From: Cristatella mucedo
Taxonomy: Eukaryota > Bryozoa > Phylactolaemata > Cristatellidae
Direction: 5' to 3'
Assembly: GCA_009760855.2 (NCBI GenBank)
Contig: WPIO01000274.1
Coordinates: 1 to 64,000, forward strand
Length of the DNA: 64,000 nt
Below are positions 1-43,673 of this stretch, piece after piece. The position numbers and the translations under genes were made by a program. The first letter of the stretch is position 1. Every line of letters begins with the position of its first letter. The notes beneath the pieces were generated by a model. That model was not told the origin of the DNA and made no database searches. It saw nothing but the letters and a program-made list of their open reading frames with translations.

Positions 1-442
1 AACAGTCATCGATTTTTGAAGAAGAATTTGCAGTGCCGGTTTTCATTTTTCTGGCCATGATTGGGGGAACGGATTTTGTATTCCCACGACAAAACAATAG
101 CAAAGATGTCATCAGCAAACCGTTGCTGAGAAACGTACGTATTACCCAAGGCTAGATGGTTACTAAGCAACGATCAGTGACAAGTGTTGCATTTTATTTT
201 GAATAAACTATAACAGCACTTGCTTTGACCTAAATATAGATGCAAGCATCCGGACGTTATCTGGACGCACTTCGTACCTCCTTTCGCATGCACGAAATAT
301 ACTTGTTGGTTCATTGAAAAATTATGCCGGCGGCTTAACTTAGTTCATTGTTACTGTACTGGCACACGAAATTTCAGCTTTAGGACTTTTATTCTCTTCA
401 CGAAGATTCTTAGAAATCCCATCGATTGTTTTGTCGGTGTCA

Positions 443-976
443 ATGTATGTAGCTCCATCAGTAACTCCACAAAGTCATAAAGACATGTGGGTGTTAGGCA
501 GGAGAGTTTTGTATAGCACACTCACAGCCTAAGCGGCTTTCGGTACACATTCGGTAGCCATAAGGCTTCGTCTTACGCAACAAAGAGAAAGTGGGAAGCA
601 TATCGGAGTTAGGAGTGCAGTTGAGGTAGTGAGTAGCATAGAAGTAGCAGTTCAGGACCGCTGAAAAAGATGTGCCATAGTCGGCAGTTGGAGAGTAGAT
701 GTCGTTGCTTAAGAATTGTGGAAGCGAGTTCCACAGTCTAGGACCTGCAGAGCTAAAGCTTCTGTCGCCAACTGTCTTTAATCGGAGGAATGGGCCAGCT
801 AATTAATTGTCCACATATGACCTGAGGGCTCAAACAGGCTGAAACTGATGCAGCAGTTCAGCTAGGTACAAAGGAGCCAAGCCGTGGTGGGCGTTGTGGG
901 TCAGAATAAGAACTTTGCTCTGTATCCTTTGCTCAACCGGCAACCATCCTAGCTCCTTCAGCAAAGGTGACACGTG
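443..976 (-). mobile_element. Beta-family LINE 3' fragment in unit 1
   Basis: A 534 bp 5'-truncated non-LTR element on the minus strand. Its residual frame ends with the LINE C-terminal signature SSAGPRLWNSLP, followed by a Cys/His-bearing tail. Its 3' end at the low coordinate is a short 'atgtatgta' tail. The borders are defined by comparison with the empty site at 15,597-15,600. The insertion is intronic and antisense to the ROCO gene. Confidence 0.88.
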
Positions 977-1594
977 TTTGTACATAGCACGTACACGTCA
1001 GCCAATATTTGATGTTGGGTGATCTCCCCTCAATAATGCGTCCTGAGGCTTATCAACATCTGTCCCCACTGGCAGGCACAAATTATCGTTAACTCAACAA
1101 TCCAGTAACCCTGGTTCGTTATCAACACAAGGCAATGGGAACATAAATCTGTACCTTGTGTACTCATAGTGCTAGGCTTCAGAATATACAAGAAGTAGAT
1201 GAGATAAAAGACTTCTTCAAACATTGAAATTTAGTCTTCCGTTCACGAACTATGGCTTGCTGTGCTTATGTGAATTTGTAGTTGAAATCGCTATTTTTTT
1301 CAGCTTTTGTGTTAGCGAACGTAATCAACCACAATGAGAGTCGGTGATTCTTTAATCTTTCTACATTCCATTGGCTATGTAGTTCTGAGGTGTAGGAAGG
1401 TGTTTGTAACATTAACCGATCGCCTTTGAGAGTAGGTTCGTTAGTGATGTACGTATAGATGATGGAAGGACGAATGCTGTGACACCAGTGTGGTCCCTAT
1501 TTGAAATACAAAATAAGCTGTCATCTCCTGGATAACCGTCGTTAGACAGGCTGGTTCGACTGTAACTATGGTTCTTTTGGGTGTGATGTTTTAG

Positions 1595-1735
1595 CTTGAG
1601 GAGCTCTGGATCAGTGAAAATAAAGAGCTCTGCAGTCTTCCTCCCTCAGTTTGTCAGCTGCAAGCCCTGAAAAAGCTCGGTGCTTCTGACTGTGGCCTAA
1701 CTAAACTGCCCGATGGCTTGGAAGTCTTGCAGTTG
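1595..1735 (+). CDS. ROCO gene, LRR exon A of unit 1
   Basis: The 141 nt exon encodes 47 residues as two leucine-rich repeats, beginning LEELWISENKELCSLP and ending with a second repeat of the form LKKLGASDCGLTKLP. It is bounded by a pyrimidine-rich acceptor (gatgttttag) and a donor (gtaaga). Both borders are phase 0. LRRs of this LxxLxLxxNxL type fold into a solenoid used for protein or ligand binding. In ROCO proteins such repeats lie N-terminal to the Roc GTPase, which fits the Roc-COR exon downstream on the same strand. This copy alone has Gly where the other A exons have Asp in LKKL(G/D)AS. The exon is too short and start-less to show as a long ORF; it was found by reading the splice-bounded frame. 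Confidence 0.87.
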
Positions 1736-2642
1736 GTAAGATAACGAGTGGCATTTTAGCCGTTAAGTGAAGTTCCTACTTTAATGTGGAAAAGATGCCA
1801 CTTTCTGTGTTTTGCATCCCAAGATGCAGTATTTTCGCAGATCAAAAACACATATCCACGACATTGAAATATCCTATTGTTTTGGCAATAGCTTCATGCC
1901 TCTATTGTGCTTTGTGACCTACCAATGTTAGCAGTGTGTAAACCAGAAATACTTGTTTCGGCAGACCGACGTTGAGTAGTTGGTCCTATGTATGGTCATG
2001 TTCACTGAAAATGTGCTTTGGAAAGTGACCTGAATATTTTCACTTAACGGGCTTAGCCTAAATTTGAGGGCAGCATTATATTCAAGTTGAGCACAACATG
2101 AATTTTTATTGTAGGTATAAAATTAAAATATGCTTGTACATTCAGTCTTTTTTCTTAGTGTTTCTACCGTTCTTTTTATAATTGATAACCCCGAGCTAGA
2201 TGCGAAGGTTATCTAGCTGAAAAATCGAAAATATGGTGAAGTTAAAACAAACAAACAATTTAAACGGTGCATTCATTTGTGTGCTGGTATCGTTACTCGT
2301 TTTTACTAGTCAAATGGAGTTCTTTTCACACAATTTCCGACTGAATCGCTAAAAAAGCTACAGGAGCAAAATTACAGGTTAGAGACAGTTTTTACGTCGA
2401 TGTTATACTCAAGTTGAAACACTGTCTAGCATGATATAATGATATACATGTTACTAGTCGCTTGATCATACACGTGACAGCCCTTGGTGGCTCATTATTG
2501 GAGGAAACTATTATTGTCCTCAAACGGTTTGTATATCGTCTTCGTGTCCCACCTTAAGTATACTATTTGTTTACTTCATGTTTCAGTAAGGAGCAGATAG
2601 TAAGAAGCGTATTGTGAGTCGTTTACTCTTTTTAATTTTACT

Positions 2643-2686
2643 GTGTCTCTGGCTGCTGCAGTCCTATTGGAATCTCACAGAGACAC
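2643..2686. repeat. Short inverted repeat in the A-B intron, unit 1
   Basis: GTGTCTCTG and CAGAGACAC form a perfect 9 bp stem around a 26 nt loop. The same hairpin recurs at 6426-6469 and 10,224-10,267, and in unit 4 near 14,012. It is intronic and of unknown role. Confidence 0.7.
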
Positions 2687-2887
2687 GAAGACACAATTTT
2701 TACGTTAAATGACTGTTTTACAGAGACCTTATTTGAGTGATGTCAATGCAGATGATGGAACAATAACTTGTGTGTCCCGCCCCTGATATTTATTCGTAAT
2801 ACTCAACACACTGTCATCCCTTGAACGACCGTAGATAGCCATTGTGGCTCGGAAGTCACCGTGGTTCTTTTTCGTGTCATTTTTTAG

Positions 2888-3025
2888 CTGGAAGAGCTCC
2901 GGATCAGTAAAAACAAGCTCATCAGTCTTCCTTCCTCCATATGCCAACTGCATGCACTGAAAAAGCTCGCAGCATTTCAGTGCAACTTAAATAAACTGCC
3001 TGAAGGCTTGGAAGGAATGCGGTCG
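2888..3025 (+). CDS. ROCO gene, LRR exon B of unit 1
   Basis: The 138 nt exon encodes 46 residues, exactly two 23-residue LRRs: LEELRISKNKLISLP in the first and LKKLAAFQCNLNKLP in the second. The acceptor is tcattttttag and the donor is gtaagttagg; both borders are phase 0. It is paralogous to exon A (same LEEL start, same LP spacing) but distinct in sequence. This matches the nested duplication of the unit. An open frame on the opposite strand covers the exon but is only its antisense shadow. The intron between exons A and B is about 1.15 kb. Confidence 0.87.
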
Positions 3026-4224
3026 GTAAGTTAGGAAGTGAAACTTTAGCTATTGCAAACCGAGAGGTTCTTCTTAAATATATAGGAATGCTGTTGCTTT
3101 GTAACTCTTGCAACCTATGATTCAGCATCGCTGTCAATTAAACGTGGTCCTAAGCAGGGTCGTTTTCGCAAATAACGTGCTTTCGACAGTAGGATGCATA
3201 TATTATGGGATTTGGCTTAGCTTAAAATTAAGGACACTTAAATAGTTCAGGTAAACTCAACATAAAATCTCAATTCAGCTTTATAAATGAAACAGGACGT
3301 TACTTTCAGTCGTTATTCGATTGTTTGTAATGCTTTTTCTTTAATAATTGATAACCCTGAAGTTGAGACTAGAGTTGTCCTGCTGCAAAAGGCTGTACTG
3401 GAGTTGATAACCAAGTTAAAGAAGCCTAAAGATTGCATTAAAATGTCTGGTGCTATCGTCATCCTTACGTATCATTTGGAAGAAGCTCTTTTCCCAGAAT
3501 TTTAGACTCATATGCCTTACGAGCATAAGGGGCTAAATTATACCATTTAGATTGCATTTTACAATGCTGTTCTCTTCTTGTTAAAACGCTGTTTAGCAGG
3601 TTAAATACGAAGACTGTCTTGCCGTTCATTTGCAACATACGACGGCCCTTGGTGACTCGGGTTTGTAAAACCTATGAGTGTCCTAAAACTATACGTGGAA
3701 AATGCCTGCCGATGTTTACTCATAGTTCACTTCATGTTTTACTTAGCAGCAGGTAGTTGCAAGCTTCTAATTGGTCAAGTCCGAACCAGTCATCGATTTT
3801 CGAAGAAGAATTTTCAGTGCCGGTTTCTTTTTCCTGGCCATGGTGGGGGCAACGGATTTCATTTTCGCACGACAAAACAATAGCAATGATGTCATGAGCT
3901 AACCGTTGCTGATAACGTACCGTATTACCCAAGGCTAGATGGTTACTAAGCAACGATCAGTGACAAGTGTTGCATTTTATTTTGAATAAACTATAACAGC
4001 ACTTGCTTTGACCTAAATATAGATGCAAGCATCCGGACGTTATCTGGACGCACTTCGTACCTGTTTTCGCATGCACGAAATATGCTTGTTTGTTCATTAA
4101 AAAATTATGCCGGCGGCTTAACTTAGTTGATTGTTACATACTGGCATACGCAATTTCAGCTTTAGGACTTTTATTCTCTTCACGAAGATTCTTAGAAATC
4201 TCATCGATTGTTTTGTCGGTGTCA

Positions 4225-4758
4225 ATGTATGTACCTCCATCAGTAACTCCACAAAGTCATAAAGACATGTGGGTGTTAGGCAGGAGAGTTTTGTATAGCA
4301 CACTCACAGCCTAAGCGGCTTTCGGTACGCATTCGGTAGCCAACAGACTTCGTCTCACGCAACAAAGAGAAAGTGGGAAGCATATCGGAGTTAGGAGTGC
4401 AGTTGAGGTAGTGAGTAGCATAGAAGTAGCAGTTCAGGACCGCTGAAAAAGATGTGCCATAGTCGGCAGTTGGAGAGTAGATGTCGTTGCTTAAGAATTG
4501 TGGAAGCGAGTTCCACAGTCTAGGACCTGCAGAGCTAAAGCTTCTGTCGCCAACTGTCTTTAATCGGAGGAATGGGCCAGCTAATTTATTGTCCACATAT
4601 GACCTGAGGGCTCAAACAGGCTGAAACTGATGCAGCAGTTCAGCTAGGTACAAAGGAGCCAAGCCGTGGTGGGCCTTGTGGGTCAGAATAAGAACTTTGC
4701 TCTGTATCCTTTGCTCAACCGGCAACCATCCTAGCTCTTTCAGCAAAGGTGACACGTG
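4225..4758 (-). mobile_element. Beta-family LINE 3' fragment in unit 2
   Basis: Same 534 bp insertion at the same place in the unit. It was copied by array amplification rather than inserted independently. It retains a ~106-codon open frame (SSAGPRLWNSLP motif). Its variants match the unit 4 copy (tacgcattcggtagccaac) rather than units 1 and 3. Confidence 0.88.
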
Positions 4759-5377
4759 TTTGTACATAGCACGTACACGTCAGCCAATATTTGATGTTGG
4801 GTGATCTCCCCTCAATAATGAGTCCTGAGGCTTATCAACATCTGTCCCCACTGGCAGGCACAAATTATCGTTAACTCAACAATCCAGTAACCCTGGTTCG
4901 TAATCAACACAAGGCAATGGGAACATAAATCTGTACCTTGTGTACTCATAGTGCTAGGCTTCAGAATATACAAGAAGTAGATGAGATAAAAGACTTCTTC
5001 AAACATTGAAATTTAGTCTTCCGTTCACGAACTATGGCTTGCTGTGCTTATGTGAATTTGTAGTTGAAATCGCTATTTTTTTCAGCTTTTGTGTTAGCGA
5101 ACGCAATCAACCGCAATGAGAGTCGGTGATTCTTTAATCTTTCTACATTCCATTGGCTATGTAGTTCTGAGGTGTAGGAAAGTGTTTTTAACATTAACCG
5201 ATCGCCTTTGAGAGTAGGTTCGTTAGTGATGTACGTATAGATGATGGAAGGACGAATGCTGTGACACCAGTGTGGTCCCTATTTGAAATACAAAATAAGC
5301 TGTCATCTCCTGGATAACCGTCGTTAGACAGGCTGGTTCGACTGTAACTATGGTTCTTTTGGGTGTGTTTTTTTTAG

Positions 5378-5518
5378 CTTGAGGAGCTCTGGATCAGAGA
5401 AAATAAAGAGCTCTGCAGTCTTCCTCCCTCAGTTTGTCAGCTGCAAGCCCTGAAAAAGCTCGATGCTTCTGACTGTGGCCTAACTAAACTGCCCGATGGC
5501 TTGGAAGTCTTGCAGTTG
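5378..5518 (+). CDS. ROCO gene, LRR exon A of unit 2
   Basis: Second copy of exon A: 141 nt, phase 0 at both ends, open throughout, acceptor with an eight-T tract before the AG. It differs from unit 1 by Ser to Arg in the first repeat (LEELWIR instead of LEELWIS) and Gly to Asp in the second. Both changes are non-synonymous and both fall on exposed positions of the LxxLxLxxN strand. The donor is gtaagttaac. Confidence 0.87.
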
Positions 5519-6670
5519 GTAAGTTAACGAGTGGCATTTTAGCCGTTAAGTGAAGTTCCTACTTTATTGTGGAAAAGATGCCACTTTCTGTGTTTTGCAT
5601 CCCAAGATGCAGTATTTTCGCAGATCAAAAACACATATCCACGACATTGAAATATCCTATTGTTTTGGCAATAGCTTCATGCCTCTATTGTGCTTTGTGA
5701 CCTACCAATGTCAGCAGTGTGTAAACCAGAAATACTTGTTTCGGCAGACCGACGTTGAGTAGTTGGTCCTATGTATTGTCATGTTCACTGAAAATGTGCT
5801 TTGGAAAGTGACCTGAATATTTTCACTTAACGGGCTTAGCCTAAATTTGAGGGCAGCATTATATTCAAGTTGAGCACAACATGAATTTTTCTTGTAGGTA
5901 TAAAATTAAAATATGCTTGTACATTCAGTCTTTTTTCTTAGTGTTTCTACCGTTCTTTTTATAATTGATAACCCCGAGCTAGATGCGAAGGTTATCTAGC
6001 TGAAAAATCGAAAATATGGTGAAGTTAAAACAAACGAACAATTTAAACGGTGCATCCATTTGTGTGCTGGTATCGTTACTCGTTTTTACTAGTCAAATGG
6101 AGTTCTTTTCACACAATTTCCGACTGAATCGTTAAAAAAGCTACAGGAGCAAAATTACAGGTTAGAGACAGTTTTTACGTCGATGTAATACTCAAGTTGA
6201 AACACTGTCTAGCATGATATAATGATATACATGTTACTAGTCGCTTGATCGTACACGTGACAGCCCTCGGTGGCTCATTATTGGAGGAAACTATTATTGT
6301 CCTCAAACGGTTTGTATATCGTCTTCGTGTCCCACCTTAAGTATACTATTTGTTTACTTCATGTTTCAGTAAGGAGCAGATAGTAAGAAGCGTATTGTGA
6401 GTCGTTTACTCTTTTTAATTTTACTGTGTCTCTGGCTGCTGCAGTCCTATTGGAATCTCACAGAGACACGAAGACACAATTTTACCGTTAAATGACTGTT
6501 TTACAGAGACCTTATTTGAGTGATGTCAATGCAGATGATCGAACAATAACTTGTGTGTCCCGCCCCTGATATTTATTCGTAATACTCAACACACTGTCAT
6601 CCCTTGAACGACCGTAGATAGCCATTGTGGCTCGGAAGTCACCGTGGTTCTTTTTCGTGTCATTTTTTAG

Positions 6671-6808
6671 CTGGAAGAGCTCCGGATCAGTAAAAACAAG
6701 CTCATCAGTCTTCCTTCCTCCATATGCCAACTGCATGCACTGAAAAAGCTCGCAGCATTTCAGTGCAACTTAAATAAACTGCCTGAAGGCTTGGAAGGAA
6801 TGCGGTCG
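6671..6808 (+). CDS. ROCO gene, LRR exon B of unit 2
   Basis: Second copy of exon B: 138 nt, identical in coding sequence to unit 1 exon B, with the same acceptor and donor. It encodes two LRRs in phase 0. The identity points to a recent duplication or homogenisation between units 1 and 2 here. Confidence 0.87.
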
Positions 6809-8016
6809 GTAAGTTAGGAAGTGAAACTTTAACTATTGCAAACCGAGAGGTTATTCTTAAATATAGGAATGCTGTTGCTTTGTAACTCTTGCAACCTATG
6901 ATTCAGCATCGCTGTCAATTAAACGTGGTCCTAAGCAGGGTCGTTTTCGAAAATAACGTGCTTTCGACAGTAGGATGCATATATTATGGGATTTGGCTTA
7001 GCTTAAAATTAAGGACACTTAAATAGTTCAGGTAAACTCAACATAAAATCTCAATTCAGCTTTATAAATGAAACAGGACGTTACTTTCAGTCGTTATTCG
7101 ATTGTTTGTAATGCTTTTTCTTTAATAATTGATAACCCTGAAGTTGAGACTAGAGTTGTCCTGCTGCAAAAGGCTGTACTGGAGTTGATAACCAAGTTAA
7201 AGAAGCCTAAAGATTGCATTAAAATGTCTGGTGCTATCGTCATCCTTACGTACCATTTGGACGAAGCTCTTTTCCCAGAATTTTAGACTCATATGCCTTA
7301 CGAGCATAAGGGGCTAAATTAGACCATTCAGATTGCATTATACAATGCCGTTCTCTTCTTGTTAAAACGCTGTTTAGCAGGTTAAATACGAAGCCTGTTT
7401 CGCCGTTCGATTGCACGTAAGACGGCCCTTGGTGACTCGCCTTTGTAAAACCTATGAGTGTCCTAAAACTATAGGTAGAAGATAGTCATGTCCTGCCGTT
7501 GTTTCCTCATAGTTCACTTCATGTTTTACTAAGCAGCAGGTAGTTGCAAGCTTCTAATTAGGGAAGTCCGAACCAGTCATCGATTTTTTTTGAAGAAGAA
7601 TTTGCAGTGCCGGTTTCATTTTCCTGGCCATGGTTGGGGCAACGGATTTCGTATTCCCACGACAAAACAATAGCAATGATGTCATCAGCAAACCGTTGCT
7701 GAGAACGTACCGTATTACCCAAGGCTAGATGGTTACTAAGCAACGATCAGTGACAAGTGTTGCATTTTATTTTGAAATAAACTATAACAGCACTTGCTTT
7801 GACCTAAATATAGATGCAAGCATCCGGACGTTATCTGGACGCACTTCGTACCTGTTTTCGCATGCACGAAATATGCTTGTTGGTTCATTGAAAAATTATG
7901 CCGGCGGCTTAACTTAGTTCATTGTTACTGTACTGGCATACGAAATTTCAGCTTTAGGACTTTTATTCTCTTCACGAAGATTCTTAGAAATCCCATCGAT
8001 TGTTTTGTCGGTGTCA

Positions 8017-8550
8017 ATGTATGTAGCTCCATCAGTAACTCCACAAAGTCATAAAGACATGTGGGTGTTAGGCAGGAGAGTTTTTGTATAGCACACTCAC
8101 AGCCTAAGCGGCTTTTGGTACACATTCGGTAGCCATAAGACTTCGTCTTACGCAACAAAGAGAAAGTGGGAAGCATATCGGAGTTAGGAGAGCAGTTGAG
8201 GTAGTGAGTAGCATAGAAGTAGCAGTTCAGGACCGCTGAAAAAGATGTGCCATAGTCGGCAGTTGGAGAGTAGATGTCGTTGCTTAAGAATTGTGGAAGC
8301 GAGTTCCACAGTCTAGGACCTGCAGAGCTAAAGCTTCTGTCGCCAACTGTCTTTAATCGGAGGAATGGGCCAGCTAATTATTGTCCACATATGACCTGAG
8401 GGCGCAAACAGGCTGAAACTGATGCAGCAGTTCAGCTAGGTACAAAGGAGCCAAGCCGTGGTGGGCCTTGTGGGTCAGAATAAGAACTTTGCTCTGTATC
8501 CTTTGCTCAACCGGCAACCATCCTAGCTCTTTCAGCAAAGGTGACACGTG
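8017..8550 (-). mobile_element. Beta-family LINE 3' fragment in unit 3
   Basis: Same 534 bp insertion. Its variants match unit 1 (acattcggtagccataag). One extra T in the poly-T near 8080 and other small changes break the long frame seen in units 2 and 4. Confidence 0.88.
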
Positions 8551-9168
8551 TTTGTACATAGCACGTACACGTCAGCCAATATTTGATGTTGGGTGATCTC
8601 CCCTCAATAATGCGTCCTGAGGCTTATCAACATCTGTCCCCACTGGCAGGCACAAATTATCGTTAACTCAACAATCCAGTAACCCTGGTTCGTTATCAAC
8701 ACAAGGCAATGGGAACATAAATCTGTACCTTGTGTACTCATAGTGCTAGGCTTCAGAATATACAAGAAGTAGATGAGATAAAAGACTTCTTCAAACATTG
8801 AAATTTAGTCTTCCGTTCACGAACTATGGCTTGCTGTGCTTATGTGAATTTGTAGTTGAAATCGCTATTTTTTTCAGCTTTTGTGTTAGCGAACGTAATC
8901 AACCACAATGAGAGTCGGTGATTCTTTAATCTTTCTACATTCCATTGGCTATGTAGTTCTGAGGTGTAGGAAGGTGTTTGTAACATTAACCGATCGCCTT
9001 TGAGAGTAGGTTCGTTAGTGATGTACGTATAGATGATGGAAGGACGAATGCTGTGACACCAGTGTGGTCCCTATTTGAAATACAAAATAGCCTGTCATAT
9101 CCTGGATAACCGTCGTTAGACAGGCTGGTTCGACTGTAACTATGGTTCTTTTGGGTGTGTTTTTTTAG

Positions 9169-9309
9169 CTTGAGGAGCTCTGGATCAGTGAAAATAAAGA
9201 GCTCTGCAGTCTTCCTCCCTCAGTTTGTCAGCTGCAAGCCCTGAAAAAGCTCGATGCTTCTGACTGTGGCCTAACTAAACTGCCCGATGGCTTGGAAGTC
9301 TTGCAGTTG
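9169..9309 (+). CDS. ROCO gene, LRR exon A of unit 3
   Basis: Third copy of exon A: 141 nt, phase 0, acceptor ttttttag, donor gtaagttaac. It encodes LEELWIS in repeat 1 and LKKLDAS in repeat 2, and is identical to the unit 4 copy. The following intron carries a small duplication (gtgagtgaag) not present in the other units. Confidence 0.87.
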
Positions 9310-10468
9310 GTAAGTTAACGAGTGTGCATTTTAGCCGTTAAGTGAGTGAAGTTCCTACTTTAATGTGGAAAAGATGCCACTTTCTGTGTTTTGCATCCCA
9401 AGATGCAGTATTTTCGCAGATCAAAAACACATATCCACGACATTGAAATATCCTATTGTTTTGGCAATAGCTTCATGCCTCTATTGTGCTTTGTGACCTA
9501 CCAATGTCAGCAGTGTGTAAACCAGAAATACTTGTTTCGGCAGACCGACGTTGAGTAGTTGGTCCTATGTATTGTCATGTTCACTGAAAATGTGCTTTGG
9601 AAAGTGACCTGAATATTTTCACTTAACGGGCTTAGCCTAAATTTGAGGGCAGCATTATATTCAAGTTGAGCACAACATGAATTTTTATTGTAGGTATAAA
9701 ATTAAAATATGCTTGTACATTCAGTCTTTTTTCTTAGTGTTTCTACCGTTCTTTTTATAATTGATAACCCCGAGCTAGATGCGAAGGTTATCTAGCTGAA
9801 AAATCGAAAATATGGTGAAGTTAAAACAAACGAACAATTTAAACGGTGCATCCATTTGTGTGCTGGTATCGTTACTCGTTTTTACTAGTCAAATGGAGTT
9901 CTTTTCACACAATTTCCGACTGAAATCGTTTAAAAAAGCTACAGGAGCAAAATTACAGGTTAGAGACAGTTTTTACGTCGATGTTATACTCAAGTTGAAA
10001 CACTGTCTAGCATGATATAATGATATACATGTTACTAGTCGCTTGATCATACACGTGACAGCCCTTGGTGGCTCATTATTGGAGGAAACTATTATTGTCC
10101 TCAAACGGTTTGTATATCGTCTTCGTGTCCCACCTTAAGTATACTATTTGTTTACTTCATGTTTCAGTAAGGAGCAGATAGTAAGAAGCGTATTGTGAGT
10201 CGTTTACTCTTTTTAATTTTACTGTGTCTCTGGCTGCTGCAGTCCTATTGGAATCTCACAGAGACACGAAGACACAATTTTACCGTTAAATGACTGTTTT
10301 ACAGAGACCTTATTTGAGTGATGTCAATGCAGATGATGGAACAATAACTTGTGTGTCCCGCCCCTGATATTTATTCGTAATACTCACCACACTGTCATCC
10401 CTCAAACGACTGTGGATAGCCATCGTGGCTCGGAAGTCACCATGGTTCTTTTTCGTGTCATTTTTTAG

Positions 10469-10606
10469 CTGGAAGAGCTCCGGATCAGTAAAAACAAGCT
10501 CATCAGTCTTCCTTCCTCCATATGCCAACTGCATGCACTGAAAACGCTCGTAGCGTTTCAGTGCAACTTAACTATACTGCCTGAAGGCTTGGAAGGAATG
10601 CGGTCG
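10469..10606 (+). CDS. ROCO gene, LRR exon B of unit 3 (most divergent copy)
   Basis: Third copy of exon B: 138 nt, open, phase 0. The second repeat reads LKTLVAFQCNLTILP instead of LKKLAAFQCNLNKLP. These are four amino-acid changes (K to T, A to V, N to T, K to I) with one silent change beside them. The changes sit in a ~190 bp patch of raised divergence (about 10,386-10,575) that also covers the preceding intron. This looks like a conversion tract from a unit outside the window. Confidence 0.86.
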
Positions 10607-11810
10607 GTAAGTTAGGAAGTGAAACTTTAACTATTGCAAACCGAGAGGTTATTCTTAAATATAGGAATGCTGTTGCTTTGTAACTCTTGCAACCTATGAT
10701 TCAGCATCGCTGTCAATTAAACGTGGTCCTAAGCAGGGTCGTTTTCGAAAATAACGTGCTTTCGACAGTAGGATGCATATATTATGGGATTTGGCTTAGC
10801 TTAAAATTAAGGACACTTAAATAGTTCAGGTAAACTCAACATAAAATCTCAATTCAGCTTTATAAATGAAACAGGACGTTACTTTCAGTCGTTATTCGAT
10901 TGTTTGTAATGCTTTTTCTTTAATAATTGATAACCCTGAAGTTGAGACTAGAGTTGTCCTGCTGCAAAAGGCTGTACTGGAGTTGATAACCAAGTTAAAG
11001 AAGCCTAAAGATTGCATTAAAATGTCTGGTGCTATCGTCATCCTTACGTATCATTTGGAAGAAGCTCTTTTCCCAGAATTTTAGACTCATATGCTTTACG
11101 AGCATAAGGGGCTAAATTAGACCATTCAGATTGCATTATACAATGCCGTTCTCTTCTTGTTAAAACGCTGTTTAGCAGGTTAAATACGAAGCCTGTTTCG
11201 CCGTTCGATTGCACGTAAGACGGCCCTTGGTGACTCGCCTTTGTAAAACCTATGAGTGTTATAAAACTATAGGTAGAAGATAGTCACGTCCTGCCGTTGT
11301 TTCCTCATAGTTCACTTCATGTTTTACTAAGCAGCAGGTAGTTGCAAGCTTCTAATTAGGGAAGTCCGAACCAGTCATCGATTTTTGAAGAAGAATTTGC
11401 AGTGCCGGTTTCATTTTCCTGGCCATGGTTGGGGCAACGGATTTCGTATTCCCACGACAAAACAATAGCAATGATGTCATCAGCAAACCGTTGCTGAGAA
11501 CGTACCGTATTACCCAAGGCTAGATGGTTACTAAGCAACGATCAGTGACAAGTGTTGCATTTTATTTTGAATAAACTATAATAGCTCTTGCTTTGACCTA
11601 TATATAGATGCAAGCATCAAGAAGTTATCTGGACGCACTTCGTACCTGTTTTCGCATGCACGAAATATGCTTGTTGGTTCATTGAAAAATTATGCCGGCG
11701 GCTTAACTTAGTTCATTGTTACTGTACTGGCATACGAAATTTCAGCTTTAGGACTTTTATTCTCTTCACGAAGATTCTTAGAAATCCCATCGATTGTTTT
11801 GTCGGTGTCA

Positions 11811-12344
11811 ATGTATGTACCTCCATCAGTAACTCCACAAAGTCATAAACACATGTGGGTGTTAGGCAGGAGAGTTTTGTATAGCACACTCACAGCCTAA
11901 GCGGCTTTCGGTACGCATTCGGTAGCCAACAGACTTCGTCTCACGCAACAAAGAGAAAGTGGGAAGCATATCGGAGTTAGGAGTGCAGTTGAGGTAGTGA
12001 GTAGCATAGAAGTAGCAGTTCAGGACCGCTGAAAAAGATGTGCCATAGTCGGCAGTTGGAGAGTAGATGTCGTTGCTTAAGAATTGTGGAAGCGAGTTCC
12101 ACAGTCTAGGACCTGCAGAGCTAAAGCTTCTGTCGCCAACTGTCGTTAATCGGAGGAATGGGCCAGCTAATTTATTGTCCACATATGACCTGAGGGCTCA
12201 AACAGGCTGAAACTGATGCAGCAGTTCAGCTAGGTACAAAGGAGCCAAGCCGTGGTGGGCCTTGTGGGTCAGAATAAGAACTTTGCTCTGTATCCTTTGC
12301 TCAACCGGCAACCATCCTAGCTCTTTCAGCAAAGGTGACACGTG
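11811..12344 (-). mobile_element. Beta-family LINE 3' fragment in unit 4
   Basis: Same 534 bp insertion, sharing the unit 2 variants, with a ~106-codon open frame remaining. It is a relic of a LINE ORF2 C-terminus, not an independent gene. Confidence 0.88.
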
Positions 12345-12963
12345 TTTGTACATAGCACGTACACGTCAGCCAATATTTGATGTTGGGTGATCTCTCCTCA
12401 ATAATGCGTCCTGAGGCTTATCAACATCTGTCCCCACTGGCAGGCACAAATTATCGTTAACTCAACAATCCAGTAACCCTGGTTCGTTATCAACACAAGG
12501 CAATGGGAACATAAATCTGTACCTTGTGTACTCATAGTGCTAGGCTTCAGAATATACAAGAAGTAGATGAGATAAAAGACTTCTTCAAACATTGAAATTT
12601 AGTCTTCCGTTCACGAACTATGGCTTGCTGTGCTTATGTGAATTTGTAGTTGAAATCGCTATTTTTTTCAGCTTTTGTGTTAGCGAACGTAATCAACCAC
12701 AATGAGAGTCGGTGATTCTTTAATCTTTCTACATTCCATTGGCTATGTAGTTCTGAGGTGTAGGAAAGTGTTTTTAACATTAACCGATCGCCTTTGAGAG
12801 TAGGTTCGTTAGTGATGTACGTATAGATGATGGAAGGACGAATGCTGTGACACCAGTGTGGTCCCTATTTGAAATACAAAATAAGCTGTCATCTCCTGGA
12901 TAACCGTCGTTAGACGGGCTGGTTCGACTGTAACTATGGTTCTTTTTGGGTGTGATTTTTTAG

Positions 12964-13104
12964 CTTGAGGAGCTCTGGATCAGTGAAAATAAAGAGCTCT
13001 GCAGTCTTCCTCCCTCAGTTTGTCAGCTGCAAGCCCTGAAAAAGCTCGATGCTTCTGACTGTGGCCTAACTAAACTGCCCGATGGCTTGGAAGTCTTGCA
13101 GTTG
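12964..13104 (+). CDS. ROCO gene, LRR exon A of unit 4
   Basis: Fourth copy of exon A: 141 nt, phase 0, acceptor gtgattttttag, donor gtaagttaac. The coding sequence is the same as in unit 3 (LEELWIS, LKKLDAS). Confidence 0.87.
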
Positions 13105-14256
13105 GTAAGTTAACGAGTGGCATTTTAGCCGTTAAGTGAAGTTCCTACTTTATTGTGGAAAAGATGCCACTTTCTGTGTTTTGCATCCCAAGATGCAGTA
13201 TTTTCGCAGATCAAAAACACATATCCACGACATTGAAATATCCTATTGTTTTGGCAATAGCTTCATGCCTCTATTGTGCTTTGTGACCTACCAATGTCAG
13301 CAGTGTGTAAACCAGAAATACTTGTTTCGGCAGACCGACGTTGAGTAGTTGGTCCTATGTATTGTCATGTTCACTGAAAATGTGCTTTGGAAAGTGACCT
13401 GAATATTTTCACTTAACGGGCTTAGCCTAAATTTGAGGGCAGCATTATATTCAAGTTGAGCACAACATGAATTTTTCTTGTAGGTATAAAATTAAAATAT
13501 GCTTGTACATTCAGTCTTTTTTCTTAGTGTTTCTACCGTTCTTTTTATCATTGATAACCCCGAGCTAGATGCGAAGGTTATCTAGCTGAAAAATCGAAAA
13601 TATGGTAGATTTAAAACAAACAAACAATTTAAACGGTCCATCCATTTGTGTGCTGGTATCGTTACTCGTTTTTACTAGTCAAATGGAGTTCTTTTCACAA
13701 AATTTCCGACTGAATCGTTGAAAAAGCTACAGGAGCAAAATTACAGGCTATAGACAGTTTGTACGTAGATGTTATATTCAAGTTGAAACACTGTCTAGCA
13801 TGATATAATGAAACGCTTGTTTCTAGTTACTTGATCATACACGTGACAGCCCATGGTGGCTCATATTTGGAGAAAACTATTCTTGTCCTCAAACGGTTTG
13901 TATATCGTCTTCGTGTCCCACCTTAAGTATACTATTTGTTTACTTCATGTTTCAGTAAGGAGCAGGTAGTAAGAAGCGTATTGTGAGTCGTTTACTCTTT
14001 TTAATGTTACTGTGTCTCTGGCTGCTGCAGTCCTATCGGAATCTCACAGAGACACGAAGACACAATTTTACCGTTAAATGACTGTTTTAAAGAGACCTTA
14101 TTTGAGTGATGTCAATGCAGATGATGGAACAATAACTTGTGTGTCCCGCCCCTGATATTTATTCGTAATACTCAACACACTGTCATCCCTCGAACGACCG
14201 TAGATAGCCATCGTGGCTCGGAAGTCACCGTGGTTCTTTTTCGTGTCATTTTTTAG

Positions 14257-14394
14257 CTGGAAGAGCTCTCGATCAGTAAAAACAAGCTCATCAGTCTTCC
14301 TTCCTCCATATGCCAACTGCATGCACTGAAAAAGCTCGCAGCATTTCAGTGCAACTTAAATAAACTGCCTGAAGGCTTGGAAGGAATGCGGTCG
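14257..14394 (+). CDS. ROCO gene, LRR exon B of unit 4
   Basis: Fourth copy of exon B: 138 nt, phase 0, open. A two-base change (cgg to tcg) replaces Arg with Ser at position 5 of the first repeat (LEELS instead of LEELR). This is an exposed concave-face position. It is otherwise identical to units 1 and 2. It is the last array exon; the next live LRR exon seen is about 19.7 kb downstream. Confidence 0.87.
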
Positions 14395-15156
14395 GTAAGT
14401 TAGGAAGTGAAACTTTAACTATTGCAAACCGAGAGGTTATTCTTAAATATAGGAATGCTGTTGCTTTGTAACTCTTGCAACCTATGATTCAGCATCGCTG
14501 TCAATTAAACGTGGTCCTAAGCAGGGTCGTTTTTGCAAATAACGTGCTTTCGACAGTAGGATGCATATATTATGGGATTTGGCTTAGCTTAAAATTAAGG
14601 ACACTTAAATAGTTCAGGTAAACTCAACATAAAATCTCAATTCAGCTTTATAAATGAAACAGGACGTTACTTTCAGTCGTTATTCGATTGTTTGTAATGC
14701 TTTTTCTTTAATAATTGATAACCCTGAAGTTGAGACTAGAGTTGTCCTGCTGCAAAAGGCTGTACTGGAGTTGATAACCAAGTTAAAGAAGCCTAAAGAT
14801 TGCATTAAAATGTCTGGTGCTATCGTCATCCTTACGTATCATTTGGAAGAAGCTCTTTTCCCAGAATTTTAGACTCATATGCCTTACGAGCATAAGGGGC
14901 TAAATTATACCATTTAGATTGCATTTTACAATGCTGTTCTCTTCTTGTTAAAACGCTGTTTAGCAGGTTAAATACGAAGCCTGTTTCGCCGTTCGATTGC
15001 ACGTAAGACGGCCCTTGGTGACTCGCCTTTGTAAAACCTATGAGTGTCCTAAAACTATAGGTAGAAGATAGTCATGTCCTGCCGATGTTTCCTCATAGTT
15101 CACTTCATGTTTTACTAAGCAGCAGGTAGTTGCAAGCTTCTAATTAGTTAAGTCCG

Positions 15157-16640
15157 TACCAGTCATCGATTTTTGAAGAAGAATTTGCAGTGCCGGTTTC
15201 ATTTTCCTGGCCATGGTTGGGGCAACGGATTTCGTATTCCCACGACAAAACAATAGCAATGATGTCATCAGCAAACCGTTGCTGAGAACGTACCGTATTA
15301 CCCAAGGCTAGATGGTTACTAAGCAACGATCAGTGACAAGTGGTGCATTTTATTTTGAATAAACTATAATAGCTCTTGCTTTGACCTATATATAGATGCA
15401 AGCATCAAGAAGTTATCTGGACGCACTTCGTACCTGTTTTCGCATGCACGAAATATGCTTGTTGGTTCATTAAAAAATTATGCCGGCGGCTTAACTTAGT
15501 TGATTGTTACATACTGGCATACGCAATTTCAGCTTTAGGACTTTTATTCTCTTCACGAAGATTCTTAGAAATCTCATCGATTGTTTTGTGGGTGTCAGCT
15601 TTGTACATAGAACGAACACGTCAGCCAATATTTGATGTTGGGTGATTTCTCCTTAGTAATGAGTCCTGAGGCTTCTGTCCCCACTGGCAGGCACCAATTA
15701 TCGTTAACTCAGCAATTCAGTAACCCTGTTTCGTTATCACTGCAAGGCGTTGGAAACATAAATCTGTACCTTGCGTACTCATAGTGCTAGGCTTCAGAAT
15801 GTACAAGAATTAGATAAGATAAAAGACTCCGGCAAATATTTCAAATTGGTCTTCCCTTCACGAACAATGGCTTGCTGTGGTAATGTGATTTTTAGTTTAA
15901 ATAGCTATTTTTCAAGGCTTTTGTGTTAGCAAATGCGATCAACCACAATGAGAGTCGGTGATTCTTTAAAACCAATGAGAGTCTGATGTTCTTGAAAGTG
16001 TTTTTACATTCCATTGGCCAGATGATGGAAGGATGAATAATTTACTATTTACGATAGAAAAAACTTATGATTACATCTCACCGTTGTTGGTTTTGGTTCA
16101 GCTTTATTAATGAAACAGGACGTTACTTTCATTCGTTATCCGAGTGTCTGTAATCCTTTTTTTTAAATAATTGATAAACCTGAACTTACGGCTAGAGTCG
16201 TCCTGCTGCAAAATGCTGCAGTGGAGTTGATTAACAACTTAAAGAAGCCTAAAGATTGCATTAAAATGTCTGGTGCTATCGTCATCCTTACGTACCATTT
16301 GGATGAAGCTCTTTTCTCAGAATTTTAGACTCATATGCCTTACAGCACGAGGGGCTAAATTAGGCCATTCAGATTGCATTATACAATGCCGTTCTCTTCT
16401 TGTTAAAACGCTGTTTAGCTGGTTAATTACGAAACCTGTTTTGCCGTTCGATTGCATGATAGACGGCCCTTGGTGACTCGGCTTTGTAAAATCTATGCGT
16501 GTCCTAAAACTATAGGTAAAAAATAGTCATGTCCTACCGACGTTTACTCATACTTCATGCATTTTTACTGAGCAGCAACAAGTAGTTACAAACGTCTAAT
16601 CGGTGAAGTCCATACCAGTCGTCGAATTTTGAAGAACGAT
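15157..16640 (+). repeat. Decayed terminal unit lacking the LRR exons
   Basis: From 15,157 to about 15,597 this partial unit is nearly identical to units 2-4. From 15,600 on it is clearly more divergent. It lacks the 534 bp LINE fragment. It jumps from the equivalent of position ~1475 to ~3270 of unit 1, so both LRR exons are gone. The remaining part (16,086-16,640) corresponds to unit 1 positions ~3265-3800. Homology stops near 16,640, which marks the array edge. Confidence 0.85.
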
Positions 16641-16659
16641 TTGCTTTGCATTCACGAAG

Positions 16660-16855
16660 AAGCTCAGAGCGCACCTGTTTAACTCAGCATTTAGCTGATC
16701 TGTGTATTTAGCTCTTCGTGTGCTTACTCTGTGCCGGCCCCTTGAGGATTTTGTTACCATGCACTTGGAAATGCTTTTCATGCAGCATTTTTAAAGTGCC
16801 TGGAGTGAGATGTAGTTCTCTTAAAGTGCTAACATTTATTTACTTATCGCTTAAA
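16660..16855 (+). mobile_element. Old LINE/SINE tail with alpha-type 3' hairpin
   Basis: The end reads aaagtgcctggagtgag, then tagttctcttaaagtgct, a diverged version of the alpha LINE 3' stem-loop. The upstream ~130 bp (cttgaggattttgttaccat) resembles 19,060-19,080, so both belong to one dispersed family. Confidence 0.5.
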
Positions 16856-16859
16856 AAGC

Positions 16860-17585
16860 TGCATATCGTGCTTGCAATATTAACCTGGCCTTTCAAAATG
16901 TTGACTAACTTCATGGTAAGATATCGTAGATGATTTGTGTATTTCTATTCGTTCTAAAACCAGGGCCTAATTATTGTGACAATCTTTCTGAATGTCTCAA
17001 CGTGTCAGCCAGAATTTAATTTTTAATATTAACGTTCCACTGGATCGTTTGGGATAGTTGATGTCTATGCTGAAGGGTAACGTAATTTATTCTAGTTGTA
17101 AGTTAGGTGTTGTCAGTTAGCAGGTAGAAGGCGTACTGTGGTTTTTCGTTGTGAATTTGTGTGATTGCTGGTGGTAGGTCATATATAGCCTTAAGGTAGA
17201 GTGGATTAACTAGTAGGTGTTATAGAAACCAATGTTTTTTTAAGCTGTGTTGTAAGATACCAAATTCTTCGACTTAGAAAGAGTGTTTTCTTACTACCAG
17301 CGATTGAGAAACTGGATCATCCACCAGGTTCCATTCTAGGTATGTAGACAGGAGCTATAGTTTGTTTGGCTTATGTAATCGAGCAGCCGATCGGTCTTTT
17401 GTCCGTGCATGACTGCCCACTCTTTTTTTGTGGGGCTGGATGTGATCTCCTATAGCAGATGCTTGAAAAGGACCTAAACATAACATTCTAGTGAGTGGCC
17501 GGACGGTTGCATGAACAAGTAGATTCAAGCCAGCTGGACTCGCCGTGCTAGAGAGCGACCTCGGGCGACTCCTAGCAGGGTGTGG
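16860..17585. other. Intergenic/intronic, nothing recognised
   Basis: No convincing ORF, exon or repeat was seen. The stretch is AT-leaning and ends where the beta LINE begins. Confidence 0.5.
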
Positions 17586-17589
17586 ACCT

Positions 17590-18598
17590 TTACTATCTCC
17601 GTCTGTAAATCCACAAAGTCATAAAGACCGTGCGGGTGGTACGCAGGGGAGTTTTGTATAGCCCACTCACAGCCTAGGCAGCTTTCGGTACGCGTCAGGT
17701 AGCCAAAAAAATTCGTCCCACACAGCAAAGAGAAAGTGGGAAGCAAAGCAGAGTCAGGAGAGCAGTTGAGGTAGTGAGTAGCATGGAAGTAGCAGCTCAG
17801 AAGGGCTGAAAAGAATGAACCATAGTCGGCAGTAGTACAGTAGTTGTCGTTGCCTAAAAATTGTGGAAGTAAGTTCCACAGTCTAGTACCTGCAGAGCTA
17901 AAGCTCTTGTCGCCAAAGGTCTTTAAGCAGAGGAGTGGGACAGCTAATGTATTGTCCACACAGTACCTAAGGGCGCGAACAGGCTGAAACTGATGCAGCA
18001 GTTCAGCTAGGTATGAAGGAGCCGAGCCGTGGTGGGCCTTGTGGGTCAGCGTTAGAACCTTACTCTGAATCCGTTGGTCAACCAGCATCCACCTTAGCTC
18101 TTTTAGCAAAGGAGACACGTGCTCAATTTTCTGGGACTTTTAGACTAGCCTTGCAGCCATATTCATAGTCAGCTGCAGTGGCCTAATCGCTTTTTTGGTA
18201 GCCCAGCCACAAGGGAATTACAATAATCAAGCCGAGACAGAAATGAAGAGCTAGTTAATTTTTTTGCAAGCCCCTCTGGAAGGCAGCTCCTAATCTTGGA
18301 TAGGGATAGGACGTAATGGCTAGCGGCAGAAGCAGTCTTCCGAATGAAGCTTTTACAATTGAGGCAGCTGTCGAAAACGACACCTACATTTCGAGCACGT
18401 AGTGATGGTATCACAACAGCATCACCTATTAGAAGAGCAAAGCCTTTTAATCCAGCCACATGTTTACGGCGTCCTATGAACAGTACTTTGGTTATATCGT
18501 CATTAAATTTAAGGAAGTTTTCCGATATCCAGGATCGAATATCGGCAAGGCAAGCATTCAGTTTTTCAGTTGCTGCGGAAAACTCCGACGGTTGGTTG
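17590..18598 (-). mobile_element. Beta-family LINE, C-terminal half of ORF2, broken
   Basis: Two minus-strand frames cover one LINE ORF2. 18,169-18,615 has the post-catalytic RT region (ADIRSWISENFLKFNDD, RLDYCNSLVAGLP). 17,525-18,118 has the C-terminus (KVLTLTHKAHHG, SFSSAGTRLWNLLP). They are joined by a frameshifted stretch near 18,120-18,170. The 3' tail is at 17,590 (ctatctccgtctg). The same family occurs at 55,855-58,430. At the 5' side it abuts a plus-strand alpha fragment at 18,599. Confidence 0.88.
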
Positions 18599-18960
18599 TC
18601 TACTGGCCTGCGCAATCAGGTACTTTCAGTTGGTGGGAAACTCTGCAGGTTGGCTCATCAGCATTGATGTTTGCAATTACCACATCGCACCTCTTCTAGC
18701 CCACAGGACTGTATTCCCATCAAGTATGGAATTGACGTCAACATTGTTTCACTTATTTTTGGCTCCGGTCTGGTTTCAGCCTTCTTTATCAGAACTTCTC
18801 CTGTATTCGGCGAAGAATAGCACACCTTCTTGTTCAAACTGGAATCGTTTAGTCATAACTCGCCTTAGCCTCAAAACCTTTGTTACCTATAGTTCGCACG
18901 GAATGAAAGCATGGTCATGCCTAGCGAAGATTTTCACTACCTTCTGAAACGGCTAAATTT
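18599..18960 (+). mobile_element. Degraded alpha-family LINE fragment
   Basis: The sequence ctactggcctgcgcaatcag, then ggtgggaaactctgcaggtt, matches the alpha LINE segment at 27,500-27,560 with many changes. Similarity fades after about 18,750, so the right border is approximate. Overlapping open frames here are fragments only. Confidence 0.5.
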
Positions 18961-19295
18961 CAAAAGAAGCTTACAATGCACTTGCTTAACTCGGCAACTG
19001 GCGAAACTTTGCAATCTGTTCGGTGTGTTCATTTCTCTTCTTGCACTCTGCCTGCTGCTTGAGGATGTTACCACAGTAATGTCATGTATCCCTGCCTGTT
19101 ACTCTGCAAAGTCAAAAAGACCATGTGAGTGTTAAGCAGGAGAGTTTTGCTTAGAGCACTCACAGCCTAAGCGGCTTTCGGTAACCAAGTGTCCTTGGCA
19201 ACACTTTCTATGTAGCATATGTAAAGTGCCTAGAATAAGATTCAGTTCTCTGAATGCTCTTCCACGCAAATGTATTTTTATTGTTATTACGAATA
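18960..19295 (+). mobile_element. Alpha-like tail element split by a beta tail
   Basis: A plus-strand copy of the family at 16,660-16,855 ends with aagtgcctagaataag, then ttcagttctctgaatgct (3' hairpin) and tatttttattgttatt. Between about 19,078 and 19,190 it is interrupted by a minus-strand beta 3' end (agtcaaaaagaccatgtgag, then gcggctttcggtaacc). This is a nested insertion. Confidence 0.6.
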
Positions 19296-31855: not shown

Positions 31856-31867
31856 TGGCCAGAGGAA

Positions 31868-33090: not shown

Positions 33091-33237
33091 CTGAGGTATC
33101 TCAATCTTTAAAAAAAAACTGCGGATCTCGCCACTCTTTCTCCGTCCATGTGGCAGCTGCATCATGCACTGAATCGGCTGCATGCTTCTCTATGCGGCCA
33201 AACCAAACTGACAGATGGCTGAGAAAGCATGCAGTCA
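33091..33237 (+). pseudogene. Dead LRR exon of the ROCO gene
   Basis: Aligned with exon B, the frame reads LRYLNL, stop, ... LSPSMWQLHHALNRLHAS ... QTKLTDG, stop, ESMQS. The Leu positions, the CQLHAL-like core and the TKLxDG end are all recognisable. The acceptor AG survives (ctttttcaag), an A run has expanded, and the donor GT has become gc. Two in-frame stops make it non-functional. The gene therefore once had further LRR cassettes between the array and the 34.1 kb exon. Confidence 0.75.
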
Positions 33238-34115: not shown

Positions 34116-34223
34116 TTGCAGGTGCTGCGTCTTAATGACAACTGCCTGAACACTTACCCTACTGGTACCCTCGGTTTGAAGAGTCTTCGAGAACTCGACC
34201 TATCAAATGACTGGCATGGCTGG
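34116..34223 (+). CDS. ROCO gene, LRR exon before the Roc-COR exon
   Basis: A 108 nt exon, 36 codons, phase 0 at both ends. The acceptor is tcctctctttag and the donor is gtaagtcc. It reads LQVLRLNDNCLNTYPTGTL, then LKSLRELDLSNDW, about one and a half LRRs of a more canonical type than the array copies. It joins in frame to the exon at 41,837, whose start (AFAGHGN, then ITELPDEV) continues the LRR. The true 5' border could be six bases later (after ttgcag), which would keep the frame. Confidence 0.85.
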
Positions 34224-41836: not shown

Positions 41837-43673
41837 GCGTTTGCTGGACATGGAAACATGATAACTGAGCTGCCAGATGAAGTTGTTCATACCTCACTGA
41901 CCAATCTCTCATTGGAAGGCAATCCAATGGTTTTTCCACCTAGTGAGGTGTGTGACCAGGGAATTAAAGCTATTCGGCAGTACTTCCGAGATAGCAGTCA
42001 GGGGAAGGAATCGCTATGCAATGATACTATCAACATGCTTGGAGACACGGGAGCAGGAAAGACTAGCATCGTTCAGTCGTTACTCTTCGGCCGGCCATCC
42101 ACTGCTGCAGCTGACGATAGAACTCGTGTGATAGATCAGAGCCTTGTAAACATTGAAAATCAGATCATAAATGTGAATGACTTTGGTGGACATGAAATTT
42201 ATCAAACAGTGGTTCCAATATTTTTGCCTTCCAATGGACTTTGCATAATTGCGTTCGACGTATTCAAAAACCTTAAGAAGCAGAAGGAGCAGGTAAACAA
42301 GTGGCTTATGACGATATTTGCTAAATCAACCGAGATACGAGTTATCGTAGTTGGCACGCATTCCGATCTTCTTGTTGAACCAGGCCAACTAAAGGTTGTG
42401 GAAGAAGAGATGGAGAAGTACGTAAAAGAAATTCAGCTGTCTGCTGAAGAAGAGCTTACATTTCATATAAATGCACTTGAATCAAGTCCGGATTCCTCCA
42501 AAACTAACGTCGACTTCCTCAAACAGCATCTTGAAAATATAAAAGATGCTGACATTCAAGTCACAACGATGAGCTGCAAAGACAGAGGTGAAAATCGCAT
42601 AGGTGAATTGAGATCATTAATCAAGAAAAAACTAAAGGCCTCGGAGCAATATCCTGCAACATGGTGTCATATTATGAAAGAAATAAGGGGCCTTAAGTCA
42701 GACGATGACAACTATCGACCATATTTGGAATGGGAGCAGGTCAGAAAAGTTTATGCAAGACACTTGGAGCCGGAGCCGGACGACTCCACACTGAAAGCTA
42801 TACTTAGATCTCTCGTATCTACATCCCAGATTATATGGCTAGAGAGCTCTTCGTCTCTTAAACACTTAGTTTTCAATCAACCTCAACGAATTGTTGACGA
42901 TTTAAAGAAGATATTGCATCACAAATATTCCGAAAGTCATAAAAACGACTACTATTACCAAGACTGTATGAATTTATATCGTCAATGGGAACTTCATAGA
43001 GATTTCTTTGCCCAGTTGCTGGGAAGTGAACATGTCAATGCTGTCAGCGATTTTATGCAACATTTTCACATGATCGCCAAGTCTTCTGAGGAAAAGTACA
43101 TCTTGACTGCCAATCTCCCTGAGCAGCCTCCTTCTAGGCTGCAAGAGTGGCTAAGAAAGGCAGCTGAAGATCCTCCTGTTTGCTTGCGGCTCAGCTTCTT
43201 GAGAGATCTCATGCCACTTGCTTTCTTTCCAACGAACCTTGCATCAATGTTATCCTGGCTGTTTTCGGAAAAAGCTGAGCCAGAATTCTGGAAGGATGGT
43301 ATGCTTGTCAAACTGCATGGTGTACCTATAATAATGAGACGTAACAAGAGTGCTTTGGAATTGGTGGCATTTTCAACAGCTGGCAAGAATGAAGTCTGGA
43401 GACCTTTAAATTCCTTGCTTGACTGCATCACTAAGAATGTGGCAATGTCGTGGAAAGGCGTCAAACCGATGTGTACGCTTATCTGCCCTGGATCGAGATA
43501 CCTGGAGAGCCTGCTTCCAACGGACCAACCACCTCTGGGACGTTTAGTGGATTGGAATGAACTGGCGAAAAACGGGCAAACTAGAGCTGAGATTACACTA
43601 CATTCAAGAACCTGGTATTGCAACAAGTGCTGCTATGAAATACCTTTGATGTGGATGTATCTACAACAGCCAG
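41837..43673 (+). CDS. ROCO gene, Roc GTPase and COR exon
   Basis: A large 1,837 nt exon, entered in phase 0 at AFAGHGN. Residues below are counted from the Met at 41,858. Residues 1-40 finish the LRR region (ITELPDEVV, LTNLSLEGNP). The Roc GTPase follows: P-loop GDTGAGKTS (62-70), G3 DFGGHEIY (108-115), G4 VVGTHSD (164-170) and a G5-like SCKDRG (239-244). COR covers about 265-605, including FFPTNLASMLSWLF and WNELAKNG. Known family role: Roc-COR is a dimerising GTPase module in LRR signalling proteins such as LRRK and MFHAS1. The G4 motif is THSD rather than NKxD, a form familiar in Roc domains. The frame stays open 20 nt past a donor at 43,674 (cag|gtatga), so further exons are likely; no kinase is visible in the window. 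Alternatively, read-through gives a stop at 43,691-43,693. Confidence 0.95.

Follow-up and report, generated by a model that had tools for sequence, protein, structure and literature searches.

The window, the whole stretch of DNA analysed here, comprises bases 1-64,000 of contig C193 (150,735 bases) in a genome assembly of 572 Mb and 688 contigs. It carries a tandem array of leucine-rich repeat (LRR) exons and, further along the same strand, an exon for the Roc and COR domains of a ROCO GTPase, the family of LRRK2 and MFHAS1. The principal features are as follows:

3..3786, plus strand: array unit 1, delimited (like the next three) by unit comparison
3787..7573, plus strand: array unit 2
7574..11371, plus strand: array unit 3
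11372..15159, plus strand: array unit 4
15160..16644, plus strand: terminal partial unit, lacking both LRR exons and the long interspersed nuclear element (LINE) fragment discussed below (empty site near 15597/15600)
1595..1735, plus strand: LRR exon A1, 47 aa, two LRRs
2888..3025, plus strand: LRR exon B1, 46 aa, two LRRs
5378..5518, plus strand: LRR exon A2
6671..6808, plus strand: LRR exon B2
9169..9309, plus strand: LRR exon A3
10469..10606, plus strand: LRR exon B3
12964..13104, plus strand: LRR exon A4
14257..14394, plus strand: LRR exon B4
34116..34223, plus strand: LRR exon C, 36 aa, phase 0-0 (LQVLRLNDNC...)
41837..43673, plus strand: Roc-COR exon (last LRR stretch, Roc GTPase, COR), identified by Pfam, paralogue alignment and structure matches

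The four complete units are 3784-3798 nt long and 97.38-98.39% identical to each other in pairwise comparison of aligned bases, and each contains one exon A (141 nt, 47 aa) and one exon B (138 nt, 46 aa). The frame is open and in phase 0 in each of the eight, with acceptors ending in tttag and gtaag donors, and each encodes two LRRs of 23-24 residues as counted by eye. The four units of about 3.79 kb with two splice-bounded exons, the 16 array LRRs, the growth by whole-unit tandem duplication and the downstream Roc-COR exon on the strand of the array, all proposed in a first-pass annotation of this DNA, were thus seen directly. The first leucine of an LRR opens each array exon, which keeps consecutive exons in solenoid register. 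The Pfam LRR_1 profile scored 20.8 bits on exon A1, just over its cut-off of 20.6, and 20.0 bits on exon B1, just under it. The window opens at base 1 of the contig, inside the array, whose 5' side is therefore cut off; with the contig starting there and three further contigs holding the same array, the extension upstream that the annotation had considered is likely.

Those three contigs, C509 (25.6 kb), C470 (31.4 kb) and C491 (28.2 kb), are short and carry the array in the same orientation. Together with C193 they hold 18 A-type and 17 B-type exons, every one of them open, including one A exon of 144 nt (C470:4375) and one with a GC donor. On its 3' side the array is followed in all four contigs by a common flank (in C193 at 16097-22434; for C470, from 16124 on), which is 97.7-98.3% identical to that of C193. 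The four may represent alleles, paralogues or pieces of a single locus. Diverged LRR exons, open over their matches, follow the array at 28296 in C470, at 22556, 22871 and 26168 in C491 and at 24623 in C509; none of this kind was found after the array in C193.

The Roc-COR exon has an acceptor at 41836, a frame open over 41837-43690 and, after 43673, a phase-1 donor-like site (CCAG/GTATGA), for which reason further exons are expected. Its Pfam Roc match reached 52.1 bits against a cut-off of 27, and AGKTS, DFGGHE and TH.D, which we take to be the Roc core motifs, were invariant across 10 aligned paralogues, identifying the Roc GTPase domain characteristic of ROCO proteins. A COR domain follows, with a COR-A profile match at E 0.0018 (18.6 bits, under the curated cut-off of 35.3) and 11 structure matches at E<=0.001, all to ROCO proteins and two of them to COR-only chains, obtained with a weak AlphaFold model (mean predicted local distance difference test score 54.6). 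The exon itself begins with LRR sequence (NMITELPDEV...LSLEGNPM; by eye) and exon C lies upstream, placing LRRs directly N-terminal to Roc as in group 1 ROCO proteins (LRR-Roc-COR). The C-terminal tail (window 43600-43673) keeps a CxxC pair and tryptophans among paralogues (TWxCxxC...IPxxWMY...PG) and is possibly a small metal-binding element.

In an exon search between the array and the Roc exon, the sole LRR-like stretch besides exon C was the following:

33124..33234, plus strand: relic LRR exon with an in-frame stop, which paralogues C128 and C167 share

Counterparts of exon C are close in C128 and C167 (86-89% identical) and related in C107 (66%) and C148 (48%).

Genome-wide, 63 Roc rows were grouped by hand into about 35 Roc-COR loci, fragments and many broken copies included (a weak C40 row and C239:66530-66787 were omitted), and for 12 of these we read from the table a match that runs unbroken over 600 or more of 618 residues. 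Protein searches with exons A and B found at least 149 LRR places, 35 of them in the four-contig array; 150 of 263 candidates were scored, making these counts lower bounds. On the 18 contigs that also carry Roc-COR sequence, every one of the 93 LRR places is oriented like its nearest Roc-COR locus, which 80 of them precede. C107 and C148 show an LRR series followed by an exon-C-like exon and then by Roc-COR, about 11-13 kb from the last two-LRR exon. Because strand and order agree to this extent throughout the family, LRR series and Roc-COR appear to form one gene, and the series most likely make up the 5' portions of ROCO genes, which supports the earlier assignment of the array to such a gene.

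LRR places are evenly spaced in several of these loci: C148 has a spacing of about 6.1 kb (last five), C150 (last four) and C274 one of 3.1 kb, C167 one of 3.0-3.07 kb (five of six), C239 one of 2.8-3.1 kb and much of C173 one of 3.8-4.7 kb; C107 and C237 are irregular. Outside the four-contig array there are 114 places; of the 60 whose sequence was fetched, 57 allow a reading as open exons in phase 0, of 141 nt (55) or 138 nt (2), L074, L079 and L090 not being modelled; the exon picker demands AG/GT and rewards 46-47 aa, and its splice sites and lengths are not independent evidence. Since periods and sequences differ between loci, the cassette seems to have been amplified in tandem repeatedly, in different ROCO genes.

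A second, broken Roc-COR copy lies on the same strand at C193:146588-148369, about 105 kb downstream of the first and outside the window, and LRR-exon sequence occurs about 9-66 kb past the Roc-COR locus in C107, C114, C276, C214, C215 and C245 (in C214 also at about 107 kb), as if whole ROCO genes were tandemly arranged. C150 and C274 hold near-identical ROCO copies, with 99.0% DNA identity in the Roc-COR exon. Their 5' flanks differ at 6 of 1350 bases and their 3' flanks at 121 of 1466 (8%). The last LRR exons differ at 1 of 141 bases (flanks 0/220), the third-from-last at 12 of 141 (flanks 2/220), and all 25 pairings of LRR exons at 1 to 14 of 141. An initial reading of the two as alleles is made uncertain by the divergence of the 3' flanks.

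To the concave face of an LRR solenoid belong the x positions of LxxLxLxxN, the general LRR pattern, and we fixed the concave positions from that pattern after exon B had been seen. Across the four-contig array the 17 A-B introns have a mean pairwise divergence of 5.2%. In exon B the proportion of nonsynonymous differences (pN) was 0.167 at the ten concave codons against 0.026 elsewhere, and when minimum changes were compared with the intron rate, the concave codons showed 19 amino-acid changes where 5.9 were expected (p 1.3e-5), and the remaining codons 8 instead of 18.9 (p 0.004). The remaining codons of exon A, counted without the 144-nt copy, showed 5 changes against 19.4 expected (p 1e-4). 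In nine exon groups, which exclude C215 as well as the C167 and C239 exons of 138 nt, concave pN exceeded the overall proportion of synonymous differences (pS) of the group in every case, with pooled values of pN 0.165 and pS 0.081 at concave codons and pN 0.058 and pS 0.096 in the rest. The most variable codons across 72 exons of 47 aa were 32, 29 and 8, all concave, followed by 46 and 13, which are not. All selection p values are approximate, since the copies are related by descent and by exchange, and C150 is nearly a copy of C274. The best reading of this pattern is that the concave face diversifies under positive selection while the framework is conserved, and the annotation's suggestion of variable recognition gains support from it. 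Pure decay of the array exons was rejected, as the changes sort by position in the LRR.

Each of the four complete units also contains a piece of mobile DNA:

443..976, minus strand: non-LTR retrotransposon (LINE) fragment in unit 1, its kind judged by eye from the peptide

The counterparts of this 534-base fragment lie at 4225-4758, 8017-8550 and 11811-12344 (minus strand) in units 2-4. When the genome was queried with a whole unit, 36 of 6988 candidates were scored and all matched the LINE fragment only, at 36 dispersed places 95-96% identical to it; the repeat query therefore used the LINE-free part 1400-3270, for which 40 of 296 candidates were scored. In C509 the fragment is present in units 2-4, and units 1 and 5, both with both LRR exons, have the uninterrupted site. 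Since the partial unit of C193 and units 1 and 5 of C509 lack the LINE and the units between carry it, it probably entered one unit, whose descendants now occupy the middle of the array. Site patterns of the four C193 units conflict, the three possible two-by-two splits being backed by 9, 9 and 2 sites, as would be expected from exchange between units.

Based on these data, we consider it probable that the array supplies the LRRs on the 5' side of an LRR-Roc-COR gene, the simplest ROCO architecture, in an expanded family, in which cassettes grow in number by exchange and the concave face is under selection. Several observations weigh against this. Exon C lies about 20 kb beyond the last array exon, across DNA with many retrotransposon-like fragments, and the one LRR exon found in that interval is a relic. 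Thirteen of the 93 LRR places come after the nearest Roc-COR locus instead of before it; four of these (C114) precede another Roc-COR fragment on the same strand, and nine (five in C215, three in C214, one in C276) have no further Roc-COR before the contig end. Within the array copies, the acceptor AG is lost in the B exon at C491:14637, the GC donor noted above departs from the standard, and exon B is missing from one C491 unit. In exon A the concave codons show no excess over introns (4 changes against 6.2 expected); the permutation test for extra amino acids at concave codons gave p <0.05 in just five of the nine groups; in C148 concave pS (0.236) is above concave pN (0.217); pN of the remaining codons slightly exceeds overall pS in C167+C239, C150 and C274; the C150 and C274 groups are not independent; and the concave codons of array exons offer very few synonymous sites (about 4-5). 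The ratio of nonsynonymous to synonymous substitution (dN/dS) for the Roc-COR exon of C193 was 1.02, 1.26 and 1.04 against C167, C128 and C239; it was 0.62 with C263 and 0.31-0.48 with five others that are more distant. The signalling part thus evolves fast too, and relaxed constraint and positive selection would both fit. No 3' terminal exon was found past 43673 in a comparison of the window with paralogue flanks, where none stood out because even non-coding DNA is largely 85-91% identical in C128. Finally, no effector domain was found near the ROCO loci among Pfam TIR (3 places) and Death (11 places) matches, kinases not having been searched; none of these places is on a contig with a Roc-COR locus except for a TIR match on C550, about 2.1 Mb away. 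As exons were searched singly, these genome-wide numbers are lower bounds. Three TIR and 11 Death matches seem few for an animal genome.

The interval before exon C would also suit an array that stands by itself as an LRR-only gene, or serves as a store of cassettes beside the ROCO gene, and that is normally not spliced to this Roc-COR exon. Brown algae have LRR-only sequences outside ROCO genes, according to one account (PMC11378527), and the arrays of C470, C491 and C509 come without a Roc-COR match, though these contigs are just 25-31 kb long. Such an arrangement would not account for the agreement in strand and the prevailing upstream order, for the C107 and C148 series that reach Roc-COR through an exon-C-like exon, or for the shared phase 0 of exons A, B and C and the Roc exon acceptor, and we regard it as unlikely. 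The units could instead be dying segmental duplicates whose exons are open merely because duplication was recent; the youth of the units (97-98% identity), Roc-COR dN/dS near 1 among the closest paralogues, the many broken Roc-COR copies and the lost acceptor and exon in C491 would all be in keeping with this. Against it stand the shortage of changes in framework codons of both exons, the rate of concave changes in exon B at about three times that of introns, which decay would not sort by LRR position, and the preservation of frame in 57 of 60 diverged exons elsewhere, and together these make decay very improbable.

Still less credible is an artefact of assembly through collapsed or mis-joined repeats. 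C193, C470 and C491 do start within the array, where an assembler would break, and the number of units and their assignment to haplotypes are uncertain, but the C193 units differ from each other by 1.6-2.6%, in C509 five units lie between the common 3' flank and the left end, where the first 37 bases are non-unit sequence, and other loci have arrays of their own with other periods. Alternative splicing of cassettes as in Dscam, or somatic rearrangement as in the variable lymphocyte receptors (VLR), by which a single locus would yield many receptors within an individual, is an extension compatible with the preferred reading of a 5' LRR array in a ROCO gene rather than a competitor to it. All modelled cassettes are symmetric in phase 0 and in register, and any subset would stay in frame; LRR exons of brown-algal ROCO genes are alternatively spliced, according to the same account (PMC11378527). 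Good splice sites on nearly every array cassette fit constitutive inclusion equally well, and we hold cassette choice to be rather unlikely.

On the preferred reading, symmetric phase-0 cassettes that encode two LRRs and start at the first LRR leucine would allow any number of units to be joined in frame and in solenoid register. Unequal exchange among tandem units may add or remove cassettes, so that growth of the array would lengthen the solenoid, and exchange with selection would alter its face. The cassettes most likely form a long LRR solenoid, whose concave face may then bind variable, probably microbial, ligands, and binding could change the nucleotide state or dimerisation of Roc-COR and so produce a signal, perhaps in immunity. 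A broader idea, which we offer tentatively and would give a little more credit than cassette choice, is that LRR-ROCO GTPases are the main hypervariable intracellular recognition system of this organism, with cassette number and order varying between individuals and with combinatorial splicing, which would amount to an adaptive-like system evolved in parallel to that of brown algae; the low TIR count (three places) is a loose hint in this direction. If splicing does join array exons to Roc-COR, the LRRs of ROCO proteins would have been turned into an expandable, positively selected recognition surface separately in animals and in brown algae, the ligands of the LRRs in simple LRR-Roc-COR proteins would become testable, and a class of intracellular GTPase receptors would join the known ways in which invertebrates diversify recognition.

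Earlier work on brown-algal LRR-ROCO genes was reportedly carried out by Zambounis et al. in 2012. In brown algae (Ectocarpus, Saccharina and others), ROCO genes contain intragenic arrays of 72-bp phase-2 LRR exons with one LRR each, and positively selected concave sites, alternative splicing and a proposed immune role are described (PMC11378527). The genes studied here resemble them in LRR-Roc-COR order, an expanded family, repeated symmetric LRR exons (tandem here according to our gene models), selection at concave sites and a role in immunity that is proposed for both. They differ in that their exons are of 141 and 138 nt, in phase 0 and with two LRRs, none being of the 72-bp phase-2 one-LRR type, and in multi-kilobase units, long introns and the LINE fragment. 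The annotation had held that such an array joined to Roc-COR would be unusual, which calls for correction: the habit occurs throughout the family in this genome, and there is the algal precedent (PMC11378527). LRR-exon arrays in ROCO genes are thus already known from brown algae, and what appears to be new is the animal variant with two LRRs in phase 0, since our search of the open-access literature, which did not cover subscription papers, turned up no account of arrays like these in ROCO genes of animals.

Tetrahymena LRR genes show recent intragenic tandem exon units, species-specific expansion and a LINE-like element near LRR repeats; they differ in having phase-2 exons of 90 bp and more than 1000 LRR genes in most species, and the available part of that study describes no link to Roc-COR (PMC6564038). 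MFHAS1-type group 1 ROCO proteins likewise have LRRs followed by Roc-COR, although MFHAS1 is one of four vertebrate ROCO proteins (PMC6337361), as against a large, fast-evolving family with exon arrays here. In Aplysia, TLR- and MyD88-like genes with ROCO domains are similarly of invertebrate immune type and combine LRRs with Roc-COR; they bear TIR domains and are few, and exon arrays are not mentioned in the available part of that paper (PMC9334734), whereas here the TIR matches found are not close to any Roc-COR locus. The VLR of lampreys and the Dscam of arthropods are also repertoires made up of repeated modules (PMC13428168); the present case, known from one genome assembly, gave no sign of alternative splicing or of somatic assembly, no search having been aimed at recombination machinery.

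The exon architecture of this animal probably arose separately from that of brown algae, because the organism has an animal-type mitochondrial code, as judged by eye. The mitochondrial contig C688 has 21,008 bases, of which 14.3 kb were read; its COX1 is sensible with AGR as Ser and ATA as Met (code 5), by eye against the consensus, and this suggests a protostome-like animal. The parts read have about 44% GC, and one strand carries COX3-ATP6-COX1-ND3 and ND6-CYTB-ND4L-ND4-ND5, with the genes other than COX1 named by eye. Within the window, simple repeats of AT, GA and ATT lie 3' of the array at 31867-32055, 37475-37580 and 52317-52350.

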